From the NCBI GenBank assembly GCA_020630595.1, contig JAHDBC010000001.1:76189-140188 (forward strand): a DNA stretch of 64,000 bases. Direction: 5' to 3'. This DNA is from Planktomarina sp. (GTDB lineage: Bacteria; Pseudomonadota; Alphaproteobacteria; Rhodobacterales; Rhodobacteraceae). Both the position numbers and the translations under genes were made by a program. How positions within the stretch are numbered: position 1 is the first letter of the stretch; each line of letters opens with the position of its first letter. Below the pieces are notes generated by a model. That model had not been told where the DNA came from, did no database searches, and saw only the letters and a program-made list of their open reading frames with translations. Below, in pieces: positions 23,028 through 26,512 of the stretch.

Positions 23028-24859
<1,832 letters not shown>

Positions 24860-24889
24860 GCGACTGCCTAGCCTGCAAGACCAGAAAGA

Positions 24890-24930
24890 AAAAGGGGGGC
24901 GGGTCCCATGTCCATACCCCGCCCCCCTTT
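24890..24930. terminator. Strong bidirectional terminator hairpin
   Basis: GGGGGGCGGG and CCCCGCCCCCC flank a 13-base loop, with five A before and four T after on the plus strand. On the minus strand it ends the transcript of the secreted-protein gene at 24965 before it enters rnhB. Confidence 0.8.
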
Positions 24931-24964
24931 TCATCAGCCGACCCTGTTTGGATCGGGTAGATTC

Positions 24965-25423
24965 TTATTCGATGCTGTATCCCGCACGCCGCAAACAGCG
25001 GGGGCGGTACCCGCGGCGGCGTTCCCCTTGGGTTGTGCGCACGCGGCTGAAACAATGATCGGGCAGATTGACCAAGGTTGCATGGACTGTCGTCCGGCTC
25101 AGGCATCGTTGCAGCATCAGGCGCACCCGGCCATGGGGGGTATCCAGCCGGCGGATACAGTCCGCCGACAGCGCCGCCCGATTGCGGGGTGTAGTGCGGT
25201 TCCGCTGGGGCTGGGGTTGCGGCAGCACAAGGTTGTTGCGTGTGTGCGGGTTTTGCGCTGATCGGTCGTCATCTTTGCGGTGCTTCAAGGCCAGACCAAC
25301 AATCGCGGCAATCGCCACGCCCAAGGCAATCTGTTCCCCCGTGGACCGTTGTGTTTGGGCCTGCGCGGGCGGGGTCAGGGCCATGGCAACAGCCGTTGCC
25401 GTAATCAGAAGAATTGCTTTCAT
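24965..25423 (-). CDS. Secreted Arg-rich protein of unknown function
   Basis: A 152-residue protein from the ATG at 25423, which has GAAAGG upstream. Residues 1-23 are a Sec signal peptide with a clear AQAQ cleavage region. A Gly/Ala-rich hydrophobic stretch (about 31-46) is followed by charged KHRKDDD, and the C-terminal part is rich in Arg with four Cys, which may form disulfides in the periplasm. I do not recognise the family. It stands alone, divergent from the gene at 25561. Confidence 0.7.
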   Translation of the reverse strand: MKAILLITATAVAMALTPPAQAQTQRSTGEQIALGVAIAAIVGLALKHRKDDDRSAQNPHTRNNLVLPQPQPQRNRTTPRNRAALSADCIRRLDTPHGRVRLMLQRCLSRTTVHATLVNLPDHCFSRVRTTQGERRRGYRPRCLRRAGYSIE

Positions 25424-25560
25424 GTCTGCACCTTTCGTTGAAGCGGGATCTGGTCCAACGGTGCGGCAACGGTGCAAAATCGCGCAATAACGCCGGCGTG
25501 TTATTGGATAACGGCGCACAGTTCTTGCCTGTCAGGGTGCGACGTTCATAGTATCCCCCC

Positions 25561-25836
25561 ATGAAACTGATTTCTTTGATCGCCCTTGGGGCCATGTGTG
25601 CCAGTTCGGCGTCAGCCGGATGTTTTGTGGAATATAAAGCCAAACAGGACGACCCTTTGGTGCTGCACTATGGGTTTTTGGAACTTCCTGCGCCCTGCCC
25701 CGACGATCCGATACCAGCAACGGCAGACCGGCTGTTGGCAGCGGGCTGGACCCTGTTGACCGTTCAATCCGCCGCAGAGACGGATCCAACCCCAGAACAA
25801 AAGGAAAATGCCGGTGACAACTTCCTTAGGTACTGA
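25561..25836 (+). CDS. Small secreted protein of unknown function
   Basis: A 91-residue protein with a Sec signal peptide (MKLISLIALGAMCASSASAG) and a mature part of about 71 residues with two Cys (positions 21 and 46) that could pair. No known motif. The ribosome site is poor (only a C-rich run before ATG), so expression may be low. It overlaps the next gene by 29 bases, which suggests coupled translation with the membrane winged-helix protein. Confidence 0.65.
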   Translation: MKLISLIALGAMCASSASAGCFVEYKAKQDDPLVLHYGFLELPAPCPDDPIPATADRLLAAGWTLLTVQSAAETDPTPEQKENAGDNFLRY

Positions 25837-26512
25837 CACCGCGCGGGGCTTGGGCCGTGTGATTGCGTTGGGTGTGGCCGCGATCGTGGTTCTGTTGACG
25901 GTGGCGGCGCTGTGGCTGTTCGTGACTTTGCCCGATGGCAATGCATTCAATGACCGTGTGGAACGCATCTTTGTGGAAAATGAAGCGCTGACCGCACAGA
26001 ACGATATTCAGTTTCTGGAAATTCTTGCGCAATCGGGCACTGCTTTTGCGGATACGTTGGCCAGTTACCGGGTCGTTATTTTTGTGCTGTTGTTGTTTGC
26101 CACCGCGCTGTTGGTCGCGACGCTTGTTTTTCTGGTTCTATTGATCGCGTTGAACCGACGTATGGCCCAAGTCGAAGCGTCGGGCATACAGGTCCGGTCT
26201 TTGTATATCAGTCGTGCGCAGAACCTTGTTTTGCTTAACAACATGGAATTCAAACTGACAGATGCCGCCACCGAAACACTGGCCGCATTGGCAGAGGCGC
26301 GAATGGACGGCGACATGCTGTCTGGCGCGGAACTTGAATCGTTGATTTCCGGGCGCCCCACATCCGACTGCGAAGAAGCCGCAGGCGCCACGCGCATCAA
26401 ACGCCTGCGCGATGTATTGGGCAATCAGATGGTAACCCAGCTGTTGATCCGGAACGTGGCACGGCGCGGCTATATGTTGGCCATCGACAAGGACGTGATT
26501 GAACTGACGTAA
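25808..26512 (+). CDS. Membrane-tethered winged-helix protein (OmpR/PhoB-type DNA-binding fold at C-terminus)
   Basis: A 234-residue protein with two strong membrane helices (about 17-41 and 88-115), a 45-residue periplasmic loop between them, and a cytoplasmic C-terminal domain. Residues 132-228 read like an OmpR-type winged helix: an LTDAATETLAAL helix, a recognition-helix region ATRIKRLRDVLG, and the wing NVARRGYML with the usual RGY. There is no receiver domain. Topology is the reverse of ToxR/CadC, which have the DNA-binding part first. Starts at ATG 25808 or GTG 25814 (AAGGA fits GTG better). It overlaps the small secreted protein gene. Function unknown; a membrane-bound transcription factor is inferred. 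Confidence 0.75.
   Translation: MPVTTSLGTDTARGLGRVIALGVAAIVVLLTVAALWLFVTLPDGNAFNDRVERIFVENEALTAQNDIQFLEILAQSGTAFADTLASYRVVIFVLLLFATALLVATLVFLVLLIALNRRMAQVEASGIQVRSLYISRAQNLVLLNNMEFKLTDAATETLAALAEARMDGDMLSGAELESLISGRPTSDCEEAAGATRIKRLRDVLGNQMVTQLLIRNVARRGYMLAIDKDVIELT

Follow-up and report, generated by a model that had tools for sequence, protein, structure and literature searches.

The 64,000-nt stretch of Planktomarina DNA analyzed here (the window) encodes a gene pair that probably represents a membrane-bound one-component regulator of inverted topology, denoted BIG, together with an obligate secreted partner, and that would control its own expression and that of genes for surface proteins. 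At the level of sequence and predicted structure, this proposal is built on the architecture of BIG, its fold model, the co-retention of the two genes, a palindromic motif with the set of genes that it precedes, and the scarcity of this motif at DUF5333 genes in genomes lacking the pair. The regulator reading is favored because the motif tends to follow the pair, because the fold of BIG is of a DNA-binding type and contains invariant basic residues, and because the small gene is both a target and an inseparable companion. The relevant features of the window are:

25485..25491, + strand: half-site CAATAAC, read by eye
25500..25512, no strand assigned: candidate palindromic operator GTTATTGGATAAC, 48 bp before the ATG of the small gene
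25561..25836, + strand: small secreted partner candidate, 91 aa (ORF, alignment), with a signal peptide read by eye and a bbaba fold in the model
25808..26512, + strand: BIG, candidate membrane-anchored transcription regulator of the inner membrane with a C-terminal OmpR-type winged helix, 234 aa (ORF)
25859..25930, + strand: TM1 of BIG, residues 18-41 (hydropathy)
25931..26071, + strand: acidic periplasmic loop of BIG, residues 42-88 (hydropathy, alignment)
26072..26155, + strand: TM2 of BIG, residues 89-116 (hydropathy)
26201..26491, + strand: winged-helix domain of BIG, residues 132-228 (Pfam, alignment, AlphaFold2, Foldseek)

Kyte-Doolittle analysis revealed two membrane segments in BIG, with the top-scoring 19-residue windows beginning at residues 21 and 89. 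Residues 42-88, the loop, contain 3 K/R versus 8 D/E, and residues 117-146 contain 4 K/R versus 1 D/E. Because the loop is acidic and positive charge follows TM2, the predicted orientation is N-in, loop out, and C-in, so that both ends of BIG should be cytoplasmic. Hydropathy and charge agree with the first-pass annotation, which had described a 234-residue protein with two membrane helices and a periplasmic loop. Its further claim of a C-terminal OmpR-like winged helix is matched by structure prediction and Foldseek; in Pfam, Trans_reg_C aligns with residues 147-224 at E=0.0013 (2e-4 if the soluble part is searched by itself) and with 19.2-21.7 bits, that is, below the gathering cut-off of 26.2. 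The receiver domain, which had been described as missing, is indeed absent from the Pfam matches of BIG at E≤10, and a sequence search of BIG against the PDB found no match. The AlphaFold2 model, which was built from a 54-sequence alignment, has a mean pLDDT of 71.5, with block means of 72-84 for residues 131-200 and 57-71 for residues 201-230. It contains strands within residues 132-148, helices at 152-166, 173-181, and 190-203, and strands at 214-217 and 221-224, an order that suggests, with moderate confidence, a winged helix in the C-terminal part. Compared with the PDB by Foldseek, the model yielded 168 matches at E≤10, four of them at E≤0.001; the best 50 of the 168 were all OmpR/PhoB-family proteins or DNA-binding domains of CadC/ToxR, and the matches listed include RpaA, GlnR, BaeR, ArlR, YycF, CadC (5ju7), and ToxR (8b4b). 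Residues R196, K198, R199, R201, and D202 are invariant in 81 of 81 sequences, and the basic residues among them are located in the predicted recognition-helix region. Averaged over the columns of the same 81 sequences, the consensus reaches 86% in the loop and 88% in the winged helix, versus 67% in TM1.

The small gene overlaps the BIG gene by 29 bp in the window. Cys21 and Cys46 of its product are invariant in a 49-row alignment, and the model, which is a confident one (pLDDT 88.9), contains, after the signal peptide, strands at residues 21-29 and 34-42, a helix at 51-60, a strand at 64-72, and a helix at 78-87. A comparison of this model with the PDB gave no structural relative, all matches having E values of 1.1 or more. 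The conserved C-terminal end of the small protein is missing in 20 of 79 loci (16 carry Roseovarius in their titles; L005, L006, L015, L054, and L056 are among the 20), and the two genes do not overlap there. Loop residue 75 of BIG is Leu in 17 of the 20 loci with the truncated small protein versus 1 of 60 with the full-length protein, a coupling that was set aside as confounded with the Roseovarius clade.

A scan of genome contigs for BIG gave 394 encoding places, the best 80 of which (64-72% identity) were used as orthologue loci. Their titles carry genus names, which we take to be Rhodobacterales, or only 'Rhodobacteraceae', 'Paracoccaceae', or 'Alphaproteobacteria bacterium'. The gene pair had been flagged for a survey of its conservation, and it is kept: the small gene is located directly upstream of BIG in 79 of the 80 loci, the exception being L029, where the contig ends only 102 bp before BIG. 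Neither outcome that the first-pass annotation had named as refuting, a predicted fold other than a winged helix or a lack of conservation of the pair, was obtained. By the start calls made in this analysis, the genes overlap in 57 of the 79 pairs, and in 50 of these the overlap is 29 bp. Among 198 genomes of the family, 157 match the BIG profile and 157 the small-protein profile, and these are the same genomes (the two lists were compared by eye); the small protein never occurs without BIG in the 198. In an order-level sample 93 of 101 genomes match BIG. In a class-wide sample of 289 genomes, searched with a single sequence and a profile, BIG was found in four, all of the same family, and gave no match in the other 285. 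Both genes are also kept where they have become unlinked, that is, on two contigs in G328, on opposite strands in G390, and 3.8 kb apart in G471, and the small gene keeps its operator in such pairs. The coupling of the small protein to BIG that had been proposed at first pass is supported indirectly by this occurrence in the same 157 of 198 genomes even with the genes apart; its suggested role as periplasmic signal or chaperone is more speculative. The pair is missing from all five sampled genomes of genus g247. G333, which belongs to the window's own genus and is a single contig of 100% completeness, has neither gene of the pair and represents a natural knockout.

Across the pair promoters of 79 orthologue loci and the window, the palindrome GTTATYSRATAAC precedes the small gene. 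A site within 1 mismatch is present in 72 of these 80 promoters versus a mean of 0.04 in 50 shuffles, a contrast that reports strength, not independence, because the promoters counted are those that supplied the seed. In 77 of the 80, at least two sites within 3 mismatches are present; the spacings seen most often, 32, 33, 21, 43, 53, and 54 bp, are close to integral numbers of helical turns. In the window, the centre of the half-site CAATAAC lies 21 bp from the palindrome centre, as in many orthologue promoters, and GTTATYNRATAAC at 25500-25512 is the single exact copy in the 2.74-Mb assembly. Outside the promoters, the density in the pair loci is about 11 sites per Mb at a PWM score of 12 or more. 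Neither the palindrome, in four forms, nor DUF5333 was found in the literature searched. The operator and the gene set described below (csg, DUF5333, and other secreted proteins) go beyond the first-pass annotation.

DUF5333 is encoded in 145 of the 198 family genomes, both with and without the pair. The scan covered 142 of these 145 genomes, with G305 (pair-less, marginal match), G323, and G420 (fragment, contig edge) left out, and extended up to 420 bp upstream from the best match. A palindrome scoring at least 12 precedes DUF5333 in 76 of the 128 genomes that contain the pair versus 3 of the 14 that lack it (Fisher p=0.007), where genomes and not independent losses are counted and shared ancestry inflates the significance. 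In assemblies at least 90% complete, which were sorted by hand, the values were 74/121 versus 1/10 (p=0.002), and without the three discovery genomes they were 73/125 versus 3/14 (p=0.009). A first pass over 90 genomes had given 53/76 versus 3/14 (p=0.001), and the weaker matches that were added contributed 23/52. At score 12, 52 of the 128 genomes with the pair have no DUF5333 palindrome. The palindromes are located 108-193 bp ahead of the domain match. The pair-less genomes that have one are G481 (98% complete) and two assemblies of 77-82% completeness, and these two may simply miss the pair in the assembly. In the window's genome, GTTATTGCATAAC (score 19.1) is found 63 bp before the DUF5333 start, versus no DUF5333 palindrome (score 0.1) in the pair-less G333 of the same genus, a contrast that amounts to one event. 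The sequence upstream of DUF5333 in G333 resembles that of the window's genome. In the latter (L135:1501-1975) the DUF5333 gene comes after an ORF that resembles nuoF and is presumably nuoF-like, and the DUF5333 operator may therefore lie inside the complex I operon.

Further sites point to other exported proteins. Of the listed exact off-locus sites with a G/C centre in genomes containing the pair, 9 of 16 are located within 300 bp of an ORF with a signal peptide by crude calls, whereas the proportion is 13-18% for random positions and 24% for positions outside ORFs (p=0.006); csg sites were counted apart. The products adjacent to these nine sites comprise two OmpA, one peptidoglycan-binding domain, one Tll0287, and one DUF5333 protein, glycine-zipper matches below the cut-off, and two proteins without any match. 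The corresponding number for A/T-centred listed sites in genomes with the pair is 1/3, and for the listed sites in pair-less genomes, only two of seven of which are G/C-centred, it is 0/7. For one-mismatch sites in the window's genome it is 1/4, the neighbor in that case being DUF5333.

In five genomes, exact off-locus palindromes precede csg operons. Pfam identifies curlin repeats at three of the five loci and CsgH at one; a CsgH search finds all five genomes. We scanned 27 CsgH loci of 26 genomes, including three matches below the Pfam cut-off. An upstream palindrome with a score of at least 9 is present at 17 of the 27 loci, with 28 sites upstream versus one downstream, and at 12 of 22 if the five discovery loci are omitted; 10 of the 27 have no csg palindrome. 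CsgH loci in pair-less genomes have the palindrome in 0 of 2 cases, one of them below the Pfam cut-off (p=0.13), a number too small to carry weight. In L185-L214, the motif accompanies most csgA-csgH-csgB operons but is absent from most other curlin-repeat genes. A search for CsgH in 111 genomes of genus g247, run without a positive control, gave no match, and the window's own genome gave no curlin match. Curli as the core task of the pair was rejected, as curlin repeats are present in 31 of the 198 family genomes and CsgH in 26 versus the pair in 157. The Alphaproteobacteria surveyed in one study all lack csgD (PMC3521004).

That another factor, for example of the Fur/Zur type, binds GTTATYSRATAAC, and that its regulon simply includes BIG and the small gene, we consider unlikely. 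The motif is an inverted repeat, which is unusual for an OmpR-type domain and is evidence against BIG as the binder; in the portion of the source available, OmpR-family proteins are described as often binding direct repeats (PMC9275681). The same portion gives TGA-N8-TGA as the site of CenR (PMC9275681), which differs from the palindrome, and CenR was rejected as the binder. In favor of a Fur/Zur-type or other factor, two of the three clearly unlinked pairs have a site at the small gene only, with BIG having none, and in G458 a Zur-like gene is found about 870 bp away from an off-locus site, with a zrgA gene farther on. The Zur motif has the same arms as the pair palindrome. Indeed, the arms GTTAT...ATAAC recur in Zur-like palindromes GTTATRNYATAAC with a different centre near znuA-family genes (L412, L415/L420, L418); among these, GTTATGATATAAC beside the znuA-family gene of the window's genome (L415/L420, G000 contig 60) is presumably a site of the Zur kind. 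In a scan of 23 znuA-family loci from 14 of 21 relatives, with L415 and L420 overlapping, RNY-centred palindromes of this type were found in four loci (two relatives besides the window's genome), and none of the 23 contained a YSR-centred site scoring at least 17. Since the centres are RNY at znuA-family loci versus YSR at the pair operator, and no YSR site with such a score was seen at those 23 loci, Zur itself is unlikely to be the binder; a Fur-family relative could possibly bind the YSR palindrome. Against a foreign regulator stands the distribution of the motif, which is nearly universal at the pair promoter and scarce at DUF5333 genes without the pair.

The same co-variation of the motif with the BIG gene speaks against a reading of the winged helix as a protein-protein module and of BIG as a membrane adaptor. 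Membrane tethering would limit access to DNA, and the Trans_reg_C score is below the Pfam cut-off, but the four basic residues R196, K198, R199, and R201 are invariant in 81/81 sequences and the structural neighbors of BIG include DNA complexes (GlnR, RpaA, ToxR), so that a function other than DNA binding appears very unlikely. It is also somewhat unlikely that the small protein acts solely as a secreted effector under shared regulation and has no contact with BIG. The unlinked small gene has its own operator, as other secreted targets do; yet, in the 198 genomes, the small protein is never found without BIG, whereas pair-less genomes can encode DUF5333 and few have csg, and conservation of the BIG loop is similar to that of the DNA-binding domain.

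In the regulator reading, we infer DNA binding by BIG, contact between BIG and the small protein, a signal, and either activation or repression of the targets. The two N-terminal membrane helices would hold the C-terminal winged helix at the cytoplasmic face, where BIG would bind copies of GTTATYSRATAAC on one face of the DNA ahead of its own operon. It would also bind ahead of genes for secreted and outer-membrane proteins, with DUF5333 as a putative target in many genomes containing the pair and csgA-csgH-csgB in many genomes that have this operon. The small protein, whose gene opens the operon and is itself a candidate target, would be the obligate periplasmic partner of BIG; it would most likely dock on the conserved 47-residue loop and may report the state of the periplasm or of an exported product, and its synthesis would close a feedback loop. 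A bolder version, which we regard as possible but tentative, is a family-wide secretome switch, in which an exported two-cysteine bbaba sensor of periplasmic or surface product binds the loop, BIG sets the levels of the sensor, curli, and secreted genes, and the pair replaces the missing CsgD in Rhodobacteraceae.

BIG shares the winged-helix effector domain of OmpR/PhoB response regulators (by AlphaFold2 and Foldseek, with Trans_reg_C below the cut-off) but has two membrane helices in place of their N-terminal receiver. Like CadC and ToxR, it appears to place an OmpR-type winged helix at the inner membrane. In those proteins the winged helix is N-terminal and is followed by a single membrane helix and a C-terminal periplasmic domain; the opposite order had been noted at first pass and holds for BIG, which has a C-terminal winged helix, two helices, and no folded periplasmic sensor domain of its own. 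BIG would fill the curli-control role of the enterobacterial activator CsgD, from which it is set apart by its description, CsgD being a soluble LuxR/FixJ-type protein. The statement that no named system has this form holds for the topology and the partner fold, but less so for the general kind, to which the co-component systems VtrA/VtrC and ToxR/ToxS come nearest. As far as the available part of the source describes them, these consist of adjacent, often overlapping genes for a tethered DNA-binding factor and a periplasmic partner (PMC9214523), and the BIG pair likewise comprises adjacent or overlapping genes for a membrane protein of DNA-binding type and a periplasmic partner candidate. According to the same part, their order is an N-terminal DNA-binding domain, a membrane helix, and a periplasmic domain, their factors are fast-evolving, and a downstream gene encodes the partner, a lipocalin-like barrel (PMC9214523), whereas BIG is highly conserved and has a C-terminal DNA-binding-type domain, two helices, and a 47-residue loop, and its partner is a signal-peptide protein of about 70 residues with a bbaba fold, encoded upstream. 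The components of the VtrA/VtrC superfamily form an obligate periplasmic heterodimer, a state that the BIG pair may share. With transmembrane transcription regulators, as defined in the available part of a survey (PMC10269533), BIG has in common a DNA-binding domain, with the caveat of the Pfam cut-off, and at least one membrane segment. That BIG, like these regulators, would bind DNA and alter transcription is suggested indirectly by the co-variation of the motif with its gene. This survey relies on Pfam models of DNA-binding domains (PMC10269533) and may have missed BIG because BIG scores below the Trans_reg_C cut-off.

The regulator pair appears to be undescribed: no description was found in the literature covered, which lies largely outside subscription journals. 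The pair is strongly conserved (157 of 198 sampled genomes) in an abundant, mostly marine family, and, if the proposal is true, a candidate regulator of curli in these bacteria is now at hand and a topology is added to those of membrane-bound transcription factors. The operator, the list of targets, and the same-genus contrast render the idea testable.

Concerning the neighboring genes, no ORF cluster downstream of BIG recurs in more than 17 of the 80 loci, barring ORFs that overlap the end of BIG. A DNA methylase with a RAMA domain (Pfam) is encoded at 23028-24934 on the minus strand of the window; we take it to be CcrM-like, and a gene near it is presumably ribonuclease HII-like (rnhB). This ccrM-rnhB neighborhood is present beside the pair, on the other strand, in 68 of the 80 loci. 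Between the methylase gene and the pair, a divergent gene for a secreted-looking protein of 154 aa (24965-25429, minus strand) borders the intergenic region that contains the operator; 3 of the 80 loci encode a similar protein at E≤1e-5, and the gene may be a further target.
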